This document shows positions 2,344 through 24,152 of a DNA stretch of 64,000 nucleotides, piece after piece. The notes below the pieces were generated by a model. It made no database searches and was not told where the DNA came from. It saw nothing but the letters and a program-made list of their open reading frames with translations. This DNA is from Fructilactobacillus ixorae (lineage in GTDB: Bacteria > Bacillota > Bacilli > Lactobacillales > Lactobacillaceae): positions 992,001 to 1,056,000 of the forward strand of contig NZ_CP097478.1 of NCBI RefSeq assembly GCF_024029915.1, given 5' to 3'. Position numbers and translations under genes: made by a program. Each line of letters opens with the position of its first letter. The first letter of the stretch is position 1.

Positions 2344-3564
2344 ATGAATAAAGTAAGTGGTCTAGCTTTCACATACATAGCGGTTTTAAGCATCATCATT
2401 GGTCTCGTTATTGGCGCTTATTTACAAATTATCAATTGGATTATTGAATTTACCTGGCACGAGTTGCCGGGTCTTTTGGGGATCAAGCAAGTGATTTGGC
2501 CCTGGCTTTTTTGTCTGCCAATGGGAATCGTGATCGGCCTGTTGCAAAAGTACTTGGGTCAATATCCCCTAACCATTGAAGAGGTCTTAGCTCAAGTTAA
2601 AACCGAAGGTCACTTTGGCTATCACAATTGGTGGCGAATCGTAGTCTTAGGATTGGTGATTCTTGGTGCTGGTGCCAGTGTCGGACCAGAAGCAAGTGCC
2701 ACCGGGATTTTTGCAGGAATGGTGTACTGAATAGGTTGCCGTTATAAATTAGCCGTACATTCAGTAGAAAATACGCAAAATAAATCACTGCTTCAACAAC
2801 TGCATCTAATTATTTGGCAACGAATAAAAGATTGTCCCAACCAAATTACCACCACATCAATTACGAATTATTTTGCGAGTAAACGCCAAAAACAAATTTA
2901 CTACAGTGCCTGGATTTTATTTGGCCTGCTTGGTTTATTTACTTTCTTCTTCTTTTTCCCGCAAGAAGGCGTGATTGGAATTCATACTCCTTCGCTCAAT
3001 TGGAAATGGCAAGGAAACCTCGTGGTTATCCCGGCATTAGTAGTTGGTTGGGCCTTTGGTTGGCTATTCGTTAAATCTGGAAAATGGTCCGAAAAAGTAA
3101 TCGGTAATTTCAATTATCCCGTCATCGAGGGCTTTCTCGGTGGAGTATTATTAGCGGTTGGAACATTGATAAGTAAGGATGTTTTATTTTCTGGTGAATT
3201 CAACATTCAATCATTTGCTAGTCACGTAACCCAAGCGCCCATTTATTCGTTAATCGCCATTGCACTTGCCAAAACGATAACAACCAACCTCGGCTTTTCC
3301 CTCGGATGGCGTGGTGGAACCATTTTCCCAGCTATTTTTACTAGCTTAGCCGTTGGCGGAATTGTAGCGCAATTAGTCGGTCCAATGCCACATTTAACCG
3401 TAACTCTAATCATGGCTGTCGCCCTAACGATAATTATTGGACAACCAATCGTAAGCATTGTTTGCTTAACCCTAGTTTGTCCCGTCCAATTTCTACCGTT
3501 TGTAATTGTTACAACTTACTTAACCCATTGGGTTGTCAACCGCTGGACTTTTTTACGTCCATAA
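2344..3564 (+). pseudogene. ClC-family chloride/ion channel, interrupted by an in-frame TGA
   Basis: The reading frame runs from ATG 2344 (with GGAGGAAT before it) to the stop at 3562-3564, about 406 codons, a normal size for a compact ClC protein. It is broken by one TGA at 2728-2730. The downstream frame is the same one, so this is a nonsense change and not a frameshift. Before the stop lies GAGASVGPEASATGIF, matching the ClC GxxxGPE motif. After it lie GWRGGTIFPAIF, the second ion-path motif, and several hydrophobic segments. The residues around the stop read MVY-stop-IGCRYKL, so a Trp codon (TGG to TGA) is the simplest origin. As it stands only a 128-residue N-terminal piece would be made. 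Confidence 0.8.
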
Positions 3565-3782
3565 TCATAATCTTATTTTCACAGATTTATACATAAACCT
3601 GATAACCCTTGTATATATCAAAATATGATTTTTCGTAATCATGCTTCTTGCCAATCAATGATTGAATAATATAATTTTTAATTATCGCAGATTTATACTT
3701 AGATTTACTTCTAAATAATTAAGGTGAACCTACGCTTGTTATCATCAATTGGAACTTCAACAATCTAAAGATCCATAGCCCA

Positions 3783-4046
3783 TCATCCGTTTACCATCCA
3801 ATCATGAAAGTCAGGATGTTTTGGGGCATCATAATGCCCATCCTTATCAAATTCAACCCTTTCGACTGAAACTTGCTTCAGCAAATTAGACCAATCTAAC
3901 GAGTTAGGAATCTTTTTTAATGAAATTTGATCTCGGTTAACTTCTAAAGACAATTTGGTGCCTTTTTCAAGTCCCAAATCCTTTCGAACAAAAACGGGAA
4001 TAACAATTTGATCCTTTTGTGAAATATTAATTATTTTGGGTTTCAT
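3783..4046 (-). CDS. AbrB/SpoVT-type (MazE-like) antitoxin-like DNA-binding protein
   Basis: This 87-residue protein starts at the second available ATG, seven bases after GGAGGG; the longer form would place that ribosome site inside the coding region. Residues 3-45 (KIINISQKDQIVIPVFVRKDLGLEKGTKLSLEV) follow the swapped-hairpin AbrB pattern, in which a short strand, the QIVIP turn and a G-L-x-x-G-T-K segment bind DNA as a dimer. The C-terminal 40 residues resemble the toxin-binding tails of MazE/PemI-type antitoxins. No intact toxin gene follows: the 200 bases downstream contain only short broken frames. It is therefore an orphan antitoxin or a stand-alone regulator in a decaying region. Confidence 0.7.
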   Translation of the reverse strand: MKPKIINISQKDQIVIPVFVRKDLGLEKGTKLSLEVNRDQISLKKIPNSLDWSNLLKQVSVERVEFDKDGHYDAPKHPDFHDWMVNG

Positions 4047-4093
4047 GCAATTTCCCTCCAAGAAAAAATAAATCTTCCGGCCTACTTTTTACT

Positions 4094-4144
4094 AATATTT
4101 TTTAATTGAATCGCCATTCGGTAACGGTGGAGTTAATTTATCAC
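4094..4144 (-). pseudogene. Remnant of the C-terminus of a second OYE-family gene
   Basis: On the minus strand this short stretch reads DKLTPPLPNGDSIKKY-stop. The intact OYE gene at 903-2078 ends GLPPLPNGESIKK-stop, and the nucleotide match extends over about 35 bases with a few differences. Nothing upstream on this strand continues the reading, so only the last 15 or so codons remain. The rest was presumably deleted or replaced by the genes now next to it. Confidence 0.6.
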
Positions 4145-4157
4145 TAAGCATAATAAA

Positions 4158-4655
4158 TTATATCGCCTCATCTTTAGTAAGGTAGGCAGTATTATAACAG
4201 TTTATCATCCATTTAGGTGTTGGTTTCTTCCCGGCAATAAACCATTCGATAATGGTCGGACGAATAAAAGCCCAGTACCCACCTCTGCCTTGTAATCCAT
4301 CAGCTTCTCTGGAAATTAATGTATGTAAAATTGAATGTTCAATTAAATTACAGTAGACAAGTCTATCGGCTTTTTGAACTGTAAACGGATACCCGAAAGA
4401 TTTTATGATTTTCGGTGTTGAAAGTTGAATATATTTATCTTCGTCAATGTGATGGATATAAAGTCCTTCATCAGTACGACTAATTTCCTTTGTCTTTATT
4501 AAGGTCTTCCGGTTCTCCTTTAAAAAATCAACATACATTTTCTCCGAATAATAATCTTTAGTAGATTTTCCATACTTATTTAAAAGCGATTTAACTGCTG
4601 ATTGATAATCTAAATCTAATAATTGCTTTGCTTCTTCTAATTTTTCTTTGCTCAT
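4158..4655 (-). CDS. HNH-like hypothetical protein
   Basis: This 165-residue protein starts at ATG 4655, eight bases after ATGAGG; a longer frame upstream has no ribosome site. Residues around 65-115 read IHHIDED, then DRLVYCNLIEHSILHTLI. A His-His-Ile-Asp strand followed by a conserved Asn and an H-x3-H helix is the layout of a beta-beta-alpha-metal (HNH) nuclease core, although the usual cysteine pairs are missing. Similar uncharacterised proteins occur in mobile regions of lactic acid bacteria. The N-terminal 50 residues are charged and probably helical. Its neighbours are a pseudogene and an orphan antitoxin, which fits an accessory island. A nuclease role is inferred from the motif only. 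Confidence 0.5.
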   Translation of the reverse strand: MSKEKLEEAKQLLDLDYQSAVKSLLNKYGKSTKDYYSEKMYVDFLKENRKTLIKTKEISRTDEGLYIHHIDEDKYIQLSTPKIIKSFGYPFTVQKADRLVYCNLIEHSILHTLISREADGLQGRGGYWAFIRPTIIEWFIAGKKPTPKWMINCYNTAYLTKDEAI

Positions 4656-4725
4656 TAAAGATTCCTCATTTACATCTTCTAATTGAAATAAAAACACAAT
4701 CCTCTTTACAAGAATCGTGTTGTCA

Positions 4726-5303
4726 TCATTGATACCTAGCTTTCAGCAATTCAGCAAATTTTTCGGGATATCCATACATTTTTTTTGCCATTACTTGTTA
4801 TCCCTGCCAAATAGAACCAATTAATTTTCATATTTAGCGTTTCCGTTTGAAGTAAGTCACCATCAATGTAGTCATACAACACATCTCCATCTCCCATATA
4901 AAACGCTTGGAAGTAATTCATACTACTAATGATTTGACGATTAGTTTTTTTATCAAAACAAATGAAATCATCTTCATCCGCATACCTATCGATTAAGTGT
5001 TCCATCTCTTTATATTCGGCGTAGATGTAATATAAATAGCCAATGATAATTTGTCCCAATTGATTAATTTATTGATCTTAAACATAAACGACAATAATCG
5101 TAAACTTATTAGCAATAATTACAAAGATGCAAGTAACGTATTCTCTCAAAATAGAAAATTTTCGTGCCCCACTAATGAATCTGATCTTCAGATTGCTGTT
5201 CTTTAGTGTGCATCACTGTATTTTTGAAAAATGGATCAGAGATTTGCTCAGGTAAACTTAGATGATAACTTGCAAGCGTCTTTTTGGTTCCGTATATAAT
5301 CAT
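4726..5303 (-). pseudogene. DUF6933-like protein gene, inactivated by several mutations
   Basis: The pieces form one decayed gene. It starts at ATG 5303 (AAAGGA before it) with MIIYGTKKTLASYHLSLPEQ, and meets TAG at 5174-5172. It continues in the same frame as WGTKIFYFERIRYLHLCN, then shifts frame near 5120 into NKFTIIVVYV, and crosses two TAA codons (5080-5078, 5071-5069). It then runs open through QLGQIIIGYLYYIYAEY and CFDKKTNRQIISSMNYF. At an eight-A run (4786-4779) it shifts again; one A fewer would restore KKMYGYPEKFAELLKARYQ-stop at 4726. The reconstructed product of about 190 residues resembles the DUF6933 family as I remember it, with a TKK start and a later W-x-x-K-x-F-Y-F segment. 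Function is unknown. Confidence 0.6.
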
Positions 5304-5442
5304 GAGGATTTTCCTTTATTTTAATAGAATTAAAAATTAATAACCAGATGTTAAAAATCATAACTAATGAAATAACACTAGAGTTTTTGAAAACAATTCT
5401 AAATAAATTTACATTTATAGTGGTCATTAAAATATAATTATC

Positions 5443-6651
5443 TTATCGCCAAATATGTGAAATTTCTTCATTACAATTTAAAATATTCTTTATATATTTA
5501 GCCAGATTAATTCTTCTAACCATTTCTTTTATTGAATCATCTTTTAATTCAATAGAATTTTTATCTAAATTAAGGCTTAATCTACTCTTATATCTAGAAA
5601 TATCATCATCACTAGGAACAATTTTTTCATAAACTTCATCTAAATGATTATTTAAAAAAGATTCTACTTCTTTTTGTTCTTCTTTATTTTCATAAACAAC
5701 AATTGAATTTGCATACTGTGATAATTCACTTTCATCAGGGGATATAAAACTAACCAAATTATTTATTAATTTCTCTAGTTTAAATCTGAAAGAATCCAAC
5801 AAATAATAATTATAAAACATATCATGTTGAGTAACTAAATCTGGTAATCCAATTGAACCAACATATGGACAAACAACTTTAAATCTACATCCATCTAAAT
5901 TAACAATTGGAATTTCCTTAAATGTCTCATTATTATATTTCAAATGAGCAACATCCCATACTAAACTAGTATCTAATTGATCTAAAGAATAAGAAGCTAC
6001 TTTAATATTAGCTAATTCATCACTTATAAAAACTATCTTATAATTTGAATCAATTAAATATCTTATAATTTCTTCATCGTCAACTTCATAATATTCCCAA
6101 TTTGCATAATCTAATAGTTTCTTCTCAAATTTTTCAGGAAATTTAAGATCAAATCCTAAATGTTTTTCCCATAAATTTAAAACTTTAGAATAGCTTGCGG
6201 TTCTATTAGTAGGTGTATTTGTATCTGCTTCCCTCATAAAAATCTGTCCAGGATGAACAATTGATTTGCTACCATATCTTTTTAATTCTTTTAAAAAAAT
6301 GGGAACCTTATCAGTATCTTTTATTTTTAAAACATCAATTTCATGACCCTGAATATTTAAAGTTTCAACTTTAATAGATGGAGCTTCAGGTTCTATTGGT
6401 AAATTATTTAAGAAATCTGTTATTTGTTGAGTATTATATCTATTATTATCATTTTCAACACCAACAACATTGCATGTTTTATCCTCAACACCAAAAATCA
6501 AATAACAGTCATGATGATGAACAGTATTAACAAAACTAAAGATATCTTTAATCATTTCAGCTTTGTGATTTTTAGAATACCACTCTTCCTTAAAATCATG
6601 ATAATCATCTTCAGGAACTTCAATTAATTTTAATAATTCATCACTATTCAT
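5443..6651 (-). CDS. AlbA_2 (Schlafen-type) domain putative ATP/nucleic-acid-binding protein
   Basis: This 402-residue protein is strongly AT-rich compared with the adjoining rlmD. Residues 8-130 fit the AlbA_2 domain shared with Schlafen proteins: DYHDFKEEW, then KAEMIKDIFSFVNT, then CYLIFGVED with VVGVEND and QQITDFLNNLP. AlbA_2 proteins are predicted ATP- or nucleic-acid-binding factors, often transcriptional regulators or defence proteins. The remaining 270 residues have no motif I recognise. The ATG lies only seven bases after the rlmD stop codon, with a weak AGTAGG as ribosome site, so it is probably transcribed with rlmD. Its base composition and position suggest acquisition by insertion at the 3' end of rlmD. 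Domain call is fairly secure; function is unknown. Confidence 0.68.
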   Translation of the reverse strand: MNSDELLKLIEVPEDDYHDFKEEWYSKNHKAEMIKDIFSFVNTVHHHDCYLIFGVEDKTCNVVGVENDNNRYNTQQITDFLNNLPIEPEAPSIKVETLNIQGHEIDVLKIKDTDKVPIFLKELKRYGSKSIVHPGQIFMREADTNTPTNRTASYSKVLNLWEKHLGFDLKFPEKFEKKLLDYANWEYYEVDDEEIIRYLIDSNYKIVFISDELANIKVASYSLDQLDTSLVWDVAHLKYNNETFKEIPIVNLDGCRFKVVCPYVGSIGLPDLVTQHDMFYNYYLLDSFRFKLEKLINNLVSFISPDESELSQYANSIVVYENKEEQKEVESFLNNHLDEVYEKIVPSDDDISRYKSRLSLNLDKNSIELKDDSIKEMVRRINLAKYIKNILNCNEEISHIWR

Positions 6652-6658
6652 TTTTTAC

Positions 6659-8038
6659 CTACTTCCGCGTAAACACCGTCACACTCTCCACATGTGGCGT
6701 CTGTGGGAACTGGTCCACCGGTTGGACCGGTTGATCAATCGCGTAACCCCCGTCAAGCAACAACTGCGCATCACGCACCAACGTGGCTGGATTACACGAA
6801 ACGTACACCAGCCGTTCTGGTTGCATCTTCACGGCACTCTCGATGAAGCTGGCGTCCAACCCTTTCCGGGGCGGATCCACCACTATTACGTCCGGTTTAA
6901 TCCCGTCCGCTTCCCACTTTTGCATCTGGTCCTCGGCCTTCCCGGTCACAAAGGTTACGTTTTCAATGTGATTCAGCTTGGCGTTCGTCCGGGCATCCTG
7001 GATGGCTTCCTTGACCACGTCAACGCCGTAAACGTGCTTCACTTGTGGCGCCATTGCAAGTGAAATCGTCCCAATCCCACAGTAGGCATCGATTACGATA
7101 TCATCCTTGGTCAACTGCGCCTTCTCAATCGCTAACGAATACAGTTTTTCCGTTTGCACCGGGTTAACCTGGTAAAACGATAACGGTGAAATCAAGAACT
7201 TCGTGTCTAACAGCTGGTCCATGATGTAGTCTTTTCCCGCCAGCACCGTGTTCTTGTCTCCTAGTAATCGGTTCCCAGTGCTCAGGTTGACATTCACAAT
7301 CAAACTGTCCAAGTGCAGTAATTTTTCCTGAATCGCGGCCGTAATTTCGGTGGCCCGCGGAAGATGCCGGTCGTTGATTACCAACACCACCATCAGCTCG
7401 TGGCTATACTTCCCGTACCGGACCATGATGTTACGCACCACGCCCTGGTGGGTCGTTTCGTTGTAAGCCGGCAGTTGAAAGTCCCGTAAGACATCGCGGA
7501 CCTTTACAATGGCATCATCAATTGTTGGATCCTGAATGTAGAAGTCTTCGATTGGGATCAAATCGTGACTGTGGCGCCGGTAAAACCCGGTTTCCAACTG
7601 TCCGTGTCGTTCTCGCACCGGAATCTGGGCCTTGTTGCGGTACTGCACTGGATGCTCCATCCCAATCGTCGGGGCCACCTGGACCTGGTTCAAATGGGCC
7701 TTTTGGAACAACTCGGCAATCTGGTGTTGTTTAAACTCCAATTGCTTCGCATAACTCAAGTGTTGTAAGGGCGCAATTCCGGCCTGCGTCAACCGGCGAT
7801 CCACCGTGATTACCCGGTCCGGACTGGCCTGCTTAATCTCGAGTAACTTGGCAAAGGCAAAGTTGCGTTTGACCTTGATCACCTTGACCGTGACTTGTTC
7901 CCCCGGAAGGGCGTCTTCGATAAAGAGCGGGTAGCCGCCGTCCACTTTGGCCACACCCATTCCTTCGTAGGTCAGGTCGGTCACCGCCACGTCGCGTGTT
8001 TCGTTTTTCGTTACTGGTGCTTGCTTCTTTTTGCTCAT
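6659..8038 (-). CDS. rlmD: 23S rRNA (uracil-C5)-methyltransferase, RlmD/RlmCD type
   Basis: This 459-residue enzyme transfers methyl from SAM to C5 of specific uridines in 23S rRNA; Gram-positive members often modify two sites. An N-terminal TRAM domain covers roughly residues 15-75. The SAM-binding loop is DAYCGIGTISLAMA. DPPRKGLD and YVSCNPATLVRD follow, the latter with the catalytic cysteine. The cysteines that hold a 4Fe-4S cluster in E. coli RlmD are absent: the region that would contain them reads RRLTQAGIAPLQHLSY. This cysteine-free form appears common in lactobacilli. The gene follows dagK after a strong terminator and has no obvious promoter of its own. It is followed seven bases later by the AlbA_2 gene. 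Confidence 0.93.
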   Translation of the reverse strand: MSKKKQAPVTKNETRDVAVTDLTYEGMGVAKVDGGYPLFIEDALPGEQVTVKVIKVKRNFAFAKLLEIKQASPDRVITVDRRLTQAGIAPLQHLSYAKQLEFKQHQIAELFQKAHLNQVQVAPTIGMEHPVQYRNKAQIPVRERHGQLETGFYRRHSHDLIPIEDFYIQDPTIDDAIVKVRDVLRDFQLPAYNETTHQGVVRNIMVRYGKYSHELMVVLVINDRHLPRATEITAAIQEKLLHLDSLIVNVNLSTGNRLLGDKNTVLAGKDYIMDQLLDTKFLISPLSFYQVNPVQTEKLYSLAIEKAQLTKDDIVIDAYCGIGTISLAMAPQVKHVYGVDVVKEAIQDARTNAKLNHIENVTFVTGKAEDQMQKWEADGIKPDVIVVDPPRKGLDASFIESAVKMQPERLVYVSCNPATLVRDAQLLLDGGYAIDQPVQPVDQFPQTPHVESVTVFTRK

Positions 8039-19983: not shown

Positions 19984-20829
19984 CTATTGGTCTTGTTTAT
20001 GCAACATCTTGCTGAAACTAGCTAACTGGCCGTAATCGGCGTTGCTGTCGTTTGGAACGACAATCAGATTCCCTTGTTCACCAGCTGCTTTCAGCGCCTC
20101 AATCGATTGCGCATTCAAATACTGCTGGTCAACATGGGCCAAGGCGGCTTGCAACTGTTCAATCCGGTACTGGTCGGCTTCCGCCTGCACCTTGGTCGCG
20201 TAAGCAGCAGCATCAGCGTGAATCTCCGTTTGTTGCTTGTCGGCTTTGGCGGTCGCAATCTTAGCGGCATTCTGGGCTTCGGTGTTCAAGCGAATTTGTT
20301 CCGCGTTCCCTTGGGCTTCTGAAATCGTGGCCTGCTTGTTCTTCGAAGCCGTGATCTGGTTCTCCATTGCCTCGCTAACTCCTTTGGAAGGCGTCAGGTC
20401 CCCAATTTGAACCCGTTCAATCATCACCCCATAGGTGTTGGTGAGATCGCCAATGTTTTGCATTAACTTAGTGTTGATCTTATCGGTTGAATTCAAAACT
20501 TCATCCAAATCCATGCTACCGATGATGTCCCGGAGCGTCCCACTCACCTGGTATGCCATCGATTGAATCGAGTTACTGTTACCGAAGGTGTAACGTTCGG
20601 CATTGGTAATCCGATAGTTCAAGGTTACCTGAATACTAATGCTGGCGTTATCGCGTGTGATCCCGGTTTGGACTGGAAGCGCTAAGGGTTGGGATTGTAA
20701 ACTAACGGTCTTAACCCGTTCAAAAACCGGGATGTAAAAGTGCAACCCACTTTCGAACTGGCGAGAGTACTTCCCTAAGAACGTTACCAAGCCCACGTTA
20801 TTCTGTTGTACAATTTTAATTCCCAGCAT
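19984..20829 (-). CDS. SPFH/Band 7 domain protein
   Basis: This 281-residue protein has an SPFH domain over residues 1-150 (VGLVTFLGKYSRQFESGLHFYIPVFERV, then a strand-rich core and AYQVSGTLRDIIGSMDLDEVL). A long Ala/Gln/Glu-rich coiled coil runs from about 160 to 250. There is no N-terminal transmembrane helix, so it would attach peripherally. SPFH proteins oligomerise on membranes and organise proteases or transporters; no partner protease is adjacent. Its start overlaps the end of the upstream 113-residue gene by 14 bases, which indicates coupling. Confidence 0.88.
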   Translation of the reverse strand: MLGIKIVQQNNVGLVTFLGKYSRQFESGLHFYIPVFERVKTVSLQSQPLALPVQTGITRDNASISIQVTLNYRITNAERYTFGNSNSIQSMAYQVSGTLRDIIGSMDLDEVLNSTDKINTKLMQNIGDLTNTYGVMIERVQIGDLTPSKGVSEAMENQITASKNKQATISEAQGNAEQIRLNTEAQNAAKIATAKADKQQTEIHADAAAYATKVQAEADQYRIEQLQAALAHVDQQYLNAQSIEALKAAGEQGNLIVVPNDSNADYGQLASFSKMLHKQDQ

Positions 20830-21157
20830 AATATTCTCCTTTAGCGACTAGATAGATTTTCTGTTCGGACACTTCCGCTACCACGTACGTTTCATGCGCG
20901 TGACGGTTCGTGTCCACAAGTTGATAAAAGTATAACACACCGTGCAGTTTGACCAACCCGTCGTCCTGCAGCTGGCGGTCCGAAATCTTGGTGCCGACAA
21001 GGTCGGTCATCCCGACCAGTTCTGGTTTCGCAAAGTGCTGCGTGAGGATGGCTTCAATTTCAGCAGCAACGCTGATGCCCTTGGCGCTGGCCAGCATGGT
21101 GATGGTGTGGAGGAGGTCGTTGTTGAGGTGAATGTTGATGTTAGTTTGGGTGGACAT
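20816..21157 (-). CDS. Hypothetical protein with ribbon-helix-helix-like N-terminus
   Basis: This 113-residue protein begins QTNINIHLNNDLLHTITMLASAKGISVAAEIEAILTQHF, a strand followed by two helices as in RelB/Arc ribbon-helix-helix DNA-binding proteins. The C-terminal half (GVLYFYQLVDTNRHAHETYVVAEVSEQKIYLVAKGEY) looks like a small beta domain I do not recognise. A strong AAAGGAGG precedes the ATG. It overlaps the SPFH gene by 14 bases and probably forms an operon with it, perhaps as its regulator. That role is inference. Confidence 0.6.
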   Translation of the reverse strand: MSTQTNINIHLNNDLLHTITMLASAKGISVAAEIEAILTQHFAKPELVGMTDLVGTKISDRQLQDDGLVKLHGVLYFYQLVDTNRHAHETYVVAEVSEQKIYLVAKGEYYAGN

Positions 21158-21243
21158 GATGGCCTCCTTTCGTACTTGTAGTTAAAATAATATTACTGAT
21201 ATTGTAAAAATATAATTAGTTTATATTCTATGATACACTAAAT

Positions 21244-21330
21244 CCAAAGCAAAAACATAGCTTCGGTTGGTAGTCCGGACGTAGCTCATTCGCTATCAGT
21301 ATCCTTCCTCCTAGGGATGTCCAGCTTTGG
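21244..21330 (+). ncRNA. yjdF-type riboswitch (azaaromatic-sensing family)
   Basis: The leader of yjdF is closed by CCAAAGC (21244-21250) pairing with GCTTTGG (21324-21330). Inside are further helices, including TAGC-TCATTC-GCTA. The ribosome site ATAGGAGG follows at 21341-21348. The yjdF RNA motif is known to precede yjdF (DUF2992) genes in Firmicutes and to respond to azaaromatic compounds. I assign it by the closing stem, size and downstream gene, not by a model search. Confidence 0.7.
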
Positions 21331-21358
21331 CAATAAATTTATAGGAGGAATAAACGCC

Positions 21359-21778
21359 ATGTTTGTTCAAAGTCAATTAACCATCATTTTTGATGGATCG
21401 TTTTATCGGGGTATTTTTGAGGTTAACTCGGGGAAAAACTATCAAGTGGAGCAAATTATTTTAGGTAGTTCAGTCCCATCCCTACCACAGCTTTGTGGCT
21501 ACTTGAATCATCATTATCATCAACTGCATTTCACAGAGGTAGCGCAAACAACAGTTAAACATCCGAATAAAATAAACCCCAAACGGCAGCAGCGCGCCGT
21601 ACAAAAACAACTTAAGCAGAAGCATCCAGTCACCAAAGCTCAGGCTGTTTTACAAACCGAATTTGAACAGAAAAAGGTTCAGCGTAAACGAAATCATTCG
21701 CAGTTAAAGCGCGAACATCAGCAACAACAGTTTGAACTAAAGCAACAAAAAAGAAAGCAAAAACATCGTGGCCATTAA
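21359..21778 (+). CDS. yjdF: YjdF family protein (DUF2992)
   Basis: This 139-residue protein has an N-terminal DUF2992 domain (QSQLTIIFDGSFYRGIFEV, then EQIILGSSVPSLPQLCGYL). The tail of about 65 residues is highly basic and rich in Gln and Lys, as in other YjdF proteins. The biochemical role is not established; the associated riboswitch suggests a response to toxic azaaromatic molecules. The ATG at 21359 is ten bases after ATAGGAGG. It has its own leader RNA and a perfect terminator. Confidence 0.85.
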   Translation: MFVQSQLTIIFDGSFYRGIFEVNSGKNYQVEQIILGSSVPSLPQLCGYLNHHYHQLHFTEVAQTTVKHPNKINPKRQQRAVQKQLKQKHPVTKAQAVLQTEFEQKKVQRKRNHSQLKREHQQQQFELKQQKRKQKHRGH

Positions 21779-21810
21779 AAAATCGTCGTCCAAATGGACG
21801 ACGATTTTTG
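21778..21810 (+). terminator. Terminator of yjdF
   Basis: A perfect stem, AAATCGTCGTCC with GGACGACGATTT, a four-base AAAT loop and a T-rich tail. It may also stop the converging nuclease gene. Confidence 0.9.
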
Positions 21811-21929
21811 TTTGCATGTATTATACTTAATATATTTGTTTTAGTTAATTATAGTATTCAAATTAAAATAAATTCGTTAAATTATTTGTACATATATGAT
21901 CATATTTAAGCACATTAGCATCAATTAAT

Positions 21930-23144
21930 CTATTGATTTTTGGGGTATACGATGTAATTAATCGGTTTAAAATTTAGGTATCTATATGGATTTCTAATTA
22001 TATAAAAATTAAATTTGTCGGTTTCTGCTTCATTTCTATATAACCTATATATTAAATAATCCTCACCTTTTTTCCTAGCTATTTGAATTTCATTTTCAGA
22101 CATGAAAAAGGGAGTTTCTTTAGTCTTCGCTGTTGCTTTAACTTCGATAAATAATCTTTTTATTGTCTCTCCACGATCATTAAATATTATTGTTTCAATG
22201 TCATAACCATAACCGTCACCACTATCTTTAGAAATATGATGAACCTCAAAATCATAAACATTAGGATCCTTATCAAGTCGTTCTTTTTCATTCGCTACTA
22301 CTAAATCATCGGCTCCCAAACCCAATTTTATGTTTTCGCTTAGTTCTTTAACATAATCATGTTTACTAATTTTCACCACATGATCAATTTTTTCCAACTT
22401 TTGATCATTAGGAACTTTGGTATCTATCCCCAAAGTCATTTCATAACTATATTCATTATTGAGTAATTCATGATTCGACTCATTATATTTATCATTATTT
22501 ATGATTTGATCATTAGTTTTTACAAAATCTTTTTCATTAATTAAACAAGCAATTAATTCATTAAAAACTTCGATTAGATGTTTTAAATCATACAACAATT
22601 CATTATTGTCAGAATTAGATAAATAATCAAAACTATAATATTTACTGTATATATTTCCTAATTCATATCCTTCCGGTAAATCAGTTTTGATTGTACTATC
22701 ACCAATTAAATTTATTGGGTTATTAGTAAAACCAAACGTATCCTCATTTTTTATAAACTTTAAATTAGATTTCCAATAATTACCAACTTCCTTGATTTTT
22801 TGTTTTGGAAAATTATGCTTAAATCTTGTTTTAAAAAATGTGTATCCTTGATTTAAAGATAAATAAACACCCTTCATATCAGACCTAAATAAGAAGACAA
22901 TATAATAACCCTTTTGAGTAGATGTACTAATATTCTTATTAAAAAGACCCATCCAAGGAACTAATGCCCATTTACTTTGACCACATGAGGCACGTACTTC
23001 AAGATCATTACCTAAAACTATAGATGGAATAGTATTTACTGCTTGGTTTCGCACAAAATTGGCTAATTCATTGGATTTAAATTCTTTATTTTTTTCATTA
23101 TCATAATTTTTTAATATGTCTAATAAATATGTTTTTAGGTCCAT
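21930..23144 (-). CDS. MrcB_N-DUF3883 protein, candidate modification-dependent nuclease
   Basis: This 404-residue protein is much more AT-rich than its neighbours. Residues about 10-165 resemble the MrcB-like N-terminal domain (DUF3578), with VRASCGQSKWALVPWMG, GYYIVFLFRSDMKGVYLSL and GYTFF; such domains are thought to read modified DNA. The C-terminal part from about 285 (LGLGADDLVVANEKERL) is DUF3883-like and contains a PD-(D/E)xK-type active site: Asp315 in GYDIET and Glu334-x-Lys336 in IEVKAT, then FFMSENEIQIA. Reader plus nuclease in one chain suggests type IV restriction without an NTPase. GGAAGGA lies eight bases before the ATG. Only about 26 bases separate it from the rpsI terminator, so it probably depends on readthrough. 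Confidence 0.7.
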   Translation of the reverse strand: MDLKTYLLDILKNYDNEKNKEFKSNELANFVRNQAVNTIPSIVLGNDLEVRASCGQSKWALVPWMGLFNKNISTSTQKGYYIVFLFRSDMKGVYLSLNQGYTFFKTRFKHNFPKQKIKEVGNYWKSNLKFIKNEDTFGFTNNPINLIGDSTIKTDLPEGYELGNIYSKYYSFDYLSNSDNNELLYDLKHLIEVFNELIACLINEKDFVKTNDQIINNDKYNESNHELLNNEYSYEMTLGIDTKVPNDQKLEKIDHVVKISKHDYVKELSENIKLGLGADDLVVANEKERLDKDPNVYDFEVHHISKDSGDGYGYDIETIIFNDRGETIKRLFIEVKATAKTKETPFFMSENEIQIARKKGEDYLIYRLYRNEAETDKFNFYIIRNPYRYLNFKPINYIVYPKNQ

Positions 23145-23170
23145 CTTATATATCCTTCCAATTCAATAAC

Positions 23171-23198
23171 AAAAAACACCCACACCAACGTGTGAGTG
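23171..23198 (-). terminator. Terminator after rpsI
   Basis: A nine-pair stem (CACTCACAC with GTGTGGGTG, one mismatch), a GTTG loop and six T residues on the minus strand lie between rpsI and the nuclease gene. Confidence 0.8.
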
Positions 23199-23220
23199 CC
23201 AAATAAGATTGAAAATAATC

Positions 23221-23613
23221 TTAACGTTTTGAGAATTGACCAGCCTTACGAGCTTTCTTAAGCCCTGGTTTCTTCCGTTCTTTCATCCGTGGGTCCCGAG
23301 TTAACAGACCAGCAGTCTTCAAAGCTTCCCGGAAGTCCGGATCAACTTCGAGCAATGCCCGCGCAATTCCAAGCCGGATGGCTCCAGCTTGACCTGAGAA
23401 GCCACCACCATTTACGTTTACTAACGTATCGTAGTTACCGAGCGTTTCCGTAACGTTGTATGGTTGTAAGATAACTTCCCGCAAGTTTGGGAATGGGATG
23501 TAATCTTCAACATCGCGTTTGTTGACGATCACTTTCCCAGTCCCAGGTACTAAGCGTACACGAGCAACTGAATCTTTCCGGCGACCTGTGCCAGTATATT
23601 GTACTTTAGCCAA
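23221..23613 (-). CDS. rpsI: 30S ribosomal protein S9
   Basis: This 130-residue protein starts [20 protein letters not shown] and ends with the basic tail [11 protein letters not shown] that reaches towards the P-site tRNA. It is full length. It follows rplM after 13 bases, the conserved pair, and carries a terminator. Confidence 0.98.
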
Positions 23614-24070: not shown

Positions 24071-24092
24071 TTTTTCTTCCTCCATGTTTCTG

Positions 24093-24140
24093 TGTTTGTT
24101 CGACACCTTATAAGTTTCCGGGGCTTATGTGGGGCAAACA
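24093..24140 (-). ncRNA. L13 leader RNA
   Basis: Nested stems are visible on the minus strand: TGTTTG (24140-24135) with CAAACA (24098-24093), inside it CAC with GTG, and ATAAG with CTTAT around CCCCGGAAA. This structured leader lies between the rplM promoter and its ribosome site and fits the L13 leader known from Firmicutes, thought to be bound by L13 for autoregulation. Confidence 0.65.
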
Positions 24141-24152
24141 ATACCAACTACC

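Follow-up and report, generated by a model that had tools for sequence, protein, structure and literature searches.

What is a lone, AT-rich gene doing directly behind rpsI, the gene for ribosomal protein S9, in Fructilactobacillus ixorae? The locus lies within a 64,000-nucleotide stretch of contig NZ_CP097478.1 (positions 992,001 to 1,056,000), hereafter the window, on whose numbering all coordinates are based. The original prediction, made from the sequence alone, had read the gene as a candidate type IV restriction enzyme that joins a reader of modified DNA to a nuclease; its observations were confirmed, and its interpretation was supported in part. We consider it likely that the gene encodes a single-chain type IV (modification-dependent) restriction enzyme, independent of nucleoside triphosphates (NTPs), which was acquired horizontally and is cargo of a defence slot behind rpsI.

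A reader–nuclease fusion of foreign-looking composition

The open reading frame (ORF) at 21930–23144 on the minus strand encodes 404 amino acids, as originally placed, and its assignment as a predicted single-chain modification-dependent endonuclease draws on Pfam, alignment and a structure model. Both of the proposed halves, an MrcB-like N-terminus and a DUF3883-like C-terminus, score far above the Pfam gathering cut-offs: the reader domain MrcB_N (DUF3578, PF12102; residues 10–197, 22554–23117) reaches 163.1 bits (E 7e-48, profile positions 2–181 of 183) against a cut-off of 25 bits, and the PD-(D/E)XK-type nuclease domain NOV_C (DUF3883, PF13020; residues 287–374, 22023–22286) reaches 59.2 bits (E 4e-16, profile positions 10–85 of 91) against 22.1 bits. 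No further Pfam domain and no NCBIfam match were found in the protein at an E-value of 1.

The nuclease core claimed for the C-terminal half, D315 ... E334-x-K336, is borne out by conservation. D315 (codon 22200–22202), the predicted metal ligand, and both E334 and K336 of the predicted ExK catalytic motif E334-V335-K336 (22137–22145) are invariant in all 48 aligned sequences, namely the protein itself and 47 of its 119 relatives. In structure comparisons, the N-terminal end of the model resembles the DNA-binding domain of Escherichia coli McrB, and the C-terminal end resembles PD-(D/E)XK nucleases, the latter match being moderate; with this fold and the conserved Asp ... Glu-x-Lys residues, the C-terminal domain belongs to the PD-(D/E)XK superfamily. 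The linker between the two domains is modelled with low confidence and is probably flexible. Matches in PADLOC, to TmtA and to PDC-S36, are confined to the C-terminal half, the latter (E 9e-25) covering residues 246–379 only and profile positions 130–259 of 280, with the MrcB_N half unmatched.

The gene is also, as had been claimed, much more AT-rich than its surroundings. In 500-bp windows its GC content is 25–29%, compared with 48% for the whole window, and GC at third codon positions (GC3) is 0.19 compared with 0.42 for rpsI; the AT-rich stretches of the window, defined as under 32% GC, are 3551–4100, 4201–6750 and 21551–23300. The gene is real, intact and foreign-looking.

Distribution of the architecture

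The two-domain architecture is widespread in databases. At an E-value of 1e-3, 119 proteins match the 404-residue protein, the closest (94% identical) coming from Fructilactobacillus cliffordii and the remaining two-domain matches being at most 47% identical; by Pfam domain counts, 77 of the 119 combine MrcB_N with NOV_C and 20 combine MrcB_N with an HNH domain. Among 100 genomes, that of F. ixorae included, 12 match the protein, some to one half only. A genome scan, of whose 136 loci 80 were kept, gave loci in Listeria, Leuconostoc, Fructobacillus, Staphylococcus, Psychrobacter and others.

In the 23 loci taken as two-domain, the GC of the gene is below that of its locus in 21 and equal to it, at two decimals, in 2, the deficit being at least 0.05 in 14. 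Low GC is thus frequent throughout the family and does not set the F. ixorae genome apart. When neighbours within 4 kb were clustered, none was common to more than 4 of the 23 loci; those that recurred were a Schlafen-group helicase (3 loci) and an EF-G-like protein (3 to 4 loci), and the gene accordingly has no obligate partner. In two Psychrobacter loci (L022 and L025), the two-domain gene again follows the 3' end of a housekeeping gene, guaA, at distances of 140 and 244 bp; guaA was identified by Pfam in the first and by likeness of the protein start in the second.

A defence slot behind rpsI within the genus

The rpsI 3' flank, whose comparison among relatives had been proposed as a check, was compared across 10 genomes of the genus, that of the window (G000) included, and the cargo behind rpsI differs between them. 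The MrcB_N–NOV_C gene occurs in only two, G000 and G004; its presence in all relatives with matching base composition, which the original prediction had named as the outcome that would tell against it, was not found. In G009 the slot is nearly empty, with about 93 bp from rpsI to the next core gene, and in G003, G006, G007 and G008 the site holds other genes, unscanned for defence, among them a D-lactate dehydrogenase gene in G006.

The other five genomes, whose rpsI proteins are 98–100% identical, carry AT-rich cargo behind rpsI. This is the MrcB_N–NOV_C gene in G000; the same gene with PDC-M39A/B in G004; Hachiman (HamA as two overlapping ORFs, and HamB) with a 333-residue protein that has weak HATPase matches and no PADLOC match in G001; a 1528-residue type ISP restriction-methylation protein in G002; and SIR2 and HerA with a 267-residue protein without a match in G005. 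One right flank is common to G002 and G005 and another to G000, G001 and G004. In all five the cargo runs in the direction of rpsI and starts past its terminator; the yjdF gene of G000 points the other way. Defence cargo in five of ten congeners, of four kinds besides PDC-M39 and bounded by two right-flank sets, marks the site as a defence hotspot.

As controls, the flanks of other ribosomal protein genes were compared in these five genomes. All five have AT-rich cargo behind rpsI, none has it behind L20, S15 or L12, and two have it behind L19. Of the first 3 kb downstream, the fraction that recurs in another genome averages 0.13 for rpsI, as against 0.99, 0.97 and 0.96 for the conserved flanks of L20, S15 and L12, and 0.59 for L19. 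Because of its cargo in two of five genomes and its fraction of 0.59, L19 (rplS) may be a second slot. The very AT-rich genes that follow rplS are at 591–2597 of locus L190 in G001 (GC 0.24), whose product resembles a P-loop NTPase by eye, and at 4545–5819 of locus L193 in G005 (GC 0.21); neither has a PADLOC match.

A further site lies within the window itself, where a 402-residue gene of 25% GC (5443–6651, minus strand) matches PDC-S50 in PADLOC (E 4.5e-100) and starts 7 bp past a gene read as a 23S rRNA (uracil-5) methyltransferase (6659–8038). In G005 the corresponding methyltransferase gene is followed by a gene whose product has NOV_C but another N-terminal part (L109, 5404–6555), and the site behind this gene is apparently a second defence slot. 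Two of the rpsI cargoes have peculiarities of their own. The type ISP gene of G002 begins with 13 tandem copies of ACAAG (L101, 2820–2890), and in the assembly an upstream ATG is out of frame with the long ORF, which together suggest that this restriction-modification gene is phase-variable. In G001 (L100), HamA is divided between two ORFs that overlap (159 and 149 residues) and may therefore be inactive or misassembled.

These comparisons bear on the possibility that the protein takes no part in restriction and is an ordinary nuclease for housekeeping or DNA repair. Its structure model is indeed fold-similar to Holliday-junction resolvases as well; however, the gene is AT-rich and present in only two of ten congeners, the slot holds defence systems in other genomes, and the nuclease is fused to a reader of modified bases, so that we regard this alternative as very improbable.

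Selection, possible exchange and mobility

Between G000 and G004, the MrcB_N–NOV_C gene shows a nonsynonymous divergence (dN) of 0.027 and a synonymous divergence (dS) of 0.115, a ratio of 0.23, and is under purifying selection. The corresponding dS values are 0.284 for rpsI and 1.65 for a flanking gene. The two genomes are about 0.96 identical along the gene and the spacer on its 3' side, and identity falls to about 0.8 beyond 21778, which is the yjdF 3' end and the right edge of the cargo; no such drop occurs on the left, where rplM and rpsI are about 0.95 identical. Moreover, in rpsI and the flanking gene G001 is nearer to G000 than G004 is, and yet it holds Hachiman. The low dS of the gene, the drop beyond 21778 and the position of G001 fit an exchange of the cassette between species, with the reservation that composition may lower dS; such movement would proceed via recombination in the conserved flanks.

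The rpsI address itself is not new: elements are known to integrate there in other Bacillota, and some bring restriction-modification genes. The rpsI 3' end is the integration site of Macrococcus mecD islands, with mention of a stretch bearing a putative type III restriction-modification system bounded by direct repeats (PMC5341023), the site of the Enterococcus faecium esp island (PMC2858755) and that of IMESag-rpsI (PMC5704250), and Streptococcus suis integrative mobilisable elements located there carry an orphan adenine methyltransferase (PMC12479173). These precedents favour the view that an integrative mobilisable element or island once attached at the rpsI 3' end, lost its integrase and left the gene behind as a remnant. 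Against it, the mecD-1 and esp islands have flanking repeats of the rpsI 3' end, and none were found here: when the rpsI 3' end and the terminator were locally aligned to the downstream sequence, over at most 6 kb (4.1 kb in G000), no score exceeded the shuffled maximum in any of seven genomes. The cargo, furthermore, starts past the terminator in the five occupied congeners, and none of their scanned cargo proteins was called an integrase, HamA, HamB, SIR2 and HerA having been scanned with PADLOC only. The slot thus shows neither the integrase nor the duplicated rpsI 3' end of an rpsI-integrated mobile island, and an origin as such a remnant appears unlikely.

The slot beyond the genus

Flanks of rpsI were also fetched from 60 of 125 matching genomes outside the genus, representing 39 genera, two of the loci being shortened by contig ends. 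Several hold defence-related genes: a Tmn-like NTPase 132 bp from rpsI (L115), a split PDC-S56 at 1.1–1.8 kb (L116), AbiJ at 2.0 kb (L147) and, in L127, a protein with the DpnI_C domain of a modification-dependent enzyme at 230 bp and a DpdF-like helicase at 1.6 kb. The series in L127 (1085–5770, genome G027) comprises a 253-residue DpnI_C protein, a sigma-factor-like protein and a 1102-residue DpdF-like helicase.

For a comparison of near and far cargo at a PADLOC threshold of 1e-10, the near set consisted of 20 out of a total of 32 AT-rich ORFs lying no more than 2.6 kb from rpsI (15 of the 60 loci), and the far set of 10 of 16 farther AT-rich ORFs. Six near ORFs in four loci match and none of the ten far ORFs does (p about 0.065, calculated by hand); given this value and the greater length of the near proteins (up to 1217 residues), a family-wide enrichment is suggestive only. 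Among these six, the L127 match to MzaA resembles a sigma-factor fragment. Most of the near ORFs that were scanned, a part of the whole set, have no PADLOC match, including a 1217-residue nSTAND protein (L161) and a PIN_8 protein (L143), and ordinary genes occur among the near ORFs, such as a transporter (L120), a LysR regulator (L125) and a PRD/Mga-type regulator (L111).

Seven added genomes (L171–L177) form a biased sample, all being from genera already sampled and chosen partly for matches. L173 holds a type II restriction-modification set (two methyltransferases, one restriction enzyme) 157 bp from rpsI, with the right flank of L115 by eye; L174 has AbiU-like and AbiO/Nhi-like genes at 1.5 and 5.2 kb, and L175 a type III methyltransferase at 4.7 kb. 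L172 was scanned without a match, and L171, L176 and L177 were left unscanned.

Proposed mode of action

As a restriction enzyme, the protein would act in a single chain. MrcB_N would flip and inspect a modified base, most likely cytosine, and the PD-(D/E)XK domain of NOV_C would cut the DNA nearby, probably as a dimer or upon binding of two sites. Host DNA would probably be spared, because no DNA cytosine methylase was found above cut-off in the two families searched: PF00145 has no match in the genome, and PF01555 matches below cut-off only, within the rRNA-methyltransferase-like gene at 6659–8038. No cognate methyltransferase is found among the genes neighbouring the MrcB_N–NOV_C gene. As a test of this reading, the absence of PF00145 from carriers is uninformative, since nine of the ten congeners also have no match to it.

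The protein may instead be an abortive-infection nuclease, in which MrcB_N senses modified phage DNA and NOV_C, in place of a cut at the modified site, then degrades DNA indiscriminately, including that of the host; we judge this rather improbable. If the restriction reading is right, a compact GTP-free reader–nuclease built on an McrB reader would be useful for mapping modified cytosines and would help to show what holds back foreign DNA in these bacteria.

Local neighbourhood and expression

The gene lies downstream of rplM (ribosomal protein L13; 23627–24106) and rpsI (23221–23613), the conserved left flank of the slot, both on the minus strand; these names come from reading the sequence, and an L13 leader was found at rplM (24089–24145). 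Convergent to it is a yjdF-type DUF2992 gene (21317–21778, plus strand) under an azaaromatic riboswitch (21239–21340), and beyond this lies a 113-residue gene without a Pfam match (20816–21157, minus strand), which bounds the slot on the right in G000, G001, G004, G006, G008 and G009. None of these four neighbours is an NTPase gene, in agreement with the original prediction.

The left boundary of the cargo is a terminator-like hairpin after rpsI (23175–23200, minus strand; -16.3 kcal/mol, z -3.7), and a hairpin with a T-run is seen by eye behind rpsI in all 10 congeners, weakest in G007. Only 30 nt separate the stem from the ATG of the MrcB_N–NOV_C gene, which is preceded by GGAAGG, and a consensus scan of the minus strand over 23144–23260 returned no sigma-70-like site. 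As originally suggested, dosing by read-through of the rpsI terminator is possible.

Transcription of the cassette might proceed by such a leak, or instead from a minimal extended -10 promoter overlapping the T-run of the terminator. An extended -10 can function without a good -35, and TGTTATAAT lies within the T-run in G002 and G005; the corresponding bases in G000 and G004, however, are TGTTATTGA, a poor -10, and two-hexamer scans gave no site in the cargo direction at the T-run in G000, G004 or G005. We judge the promoter somewhat less likely than not.

More broadly, we tentatively propose, with considerable doubt, that Lactobacillaceae use the 3' ends of translation-related operons, rpsI above all but also rplS and an rRNA-methyltransferase gene, as slots that need no integrase. 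Short, AT-rich, operon-directed defence cassettes would be swapped there via recombination in the conserved flanks, terminator leak from the ribosomal operon would give a low, growth-linked dose of nucleases that are otherwise toxic, and MrcB_N–NOV_C would be the smallest of these cassettes and a new GTP-free, cytosine-modification-dependent nuclease class. If this is true, the stretch just behind rpsI is a predictable place to search for unknown defence genes in a family associated with food and insects, and the dosing of lone nucleases gains a hypothesis that can be tested.

Comparison with known systems

A GTP-free McrB-type reader–nuclease, together with an rpsI slot that has no visible integrase and is differently filled across several Lactobacillaceae genera, looks like a new combination. 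Literature searches returned no recognisable paper on MrcB_N–NOV_C enzymes or on an rpsI defence slot in lactobacilli, in a search that included little subscription content and in which the parts that entered underscore names without the underscore are weak tests.

Like the rpsI-integrated islands (mecD, esp and IMESag-rpsI), the slot combines this chromosomal address with variable foreign cargo, which at times includes restriction-modification genes or an orphan methyltransferase; unlike it, those islands carry integrases, and their flanking repeats, where these are described, take in the rpsI 3' end. The PADLOC candidate PDC-S36 is alike in the C-terminal region and differs in the MrcB_N half.

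With McrBC the protein shares the N-terminal DUF3578 domain of McrB (e.g. 3ssc, 6gcd), in which the position of Y41 is occupied by Gln here. In contrast to McrBC, it has two Pfam domains only and no AAA+ GTPase domain, no separate McrC stands among its four neighbours, and the nuclease is fused directly to the reader. It resembles the DpnI-like and other winged-helix fusions, NTP-independent single-chain modification-dependent endonucleases (PMC11037411) which likewise unite reader and nuclease without an NTPase; those enzymes read N6-methyladenine by a winged helix, whereas here the predicted reader is MrcB_N and the predicted nuclease NOV_C.
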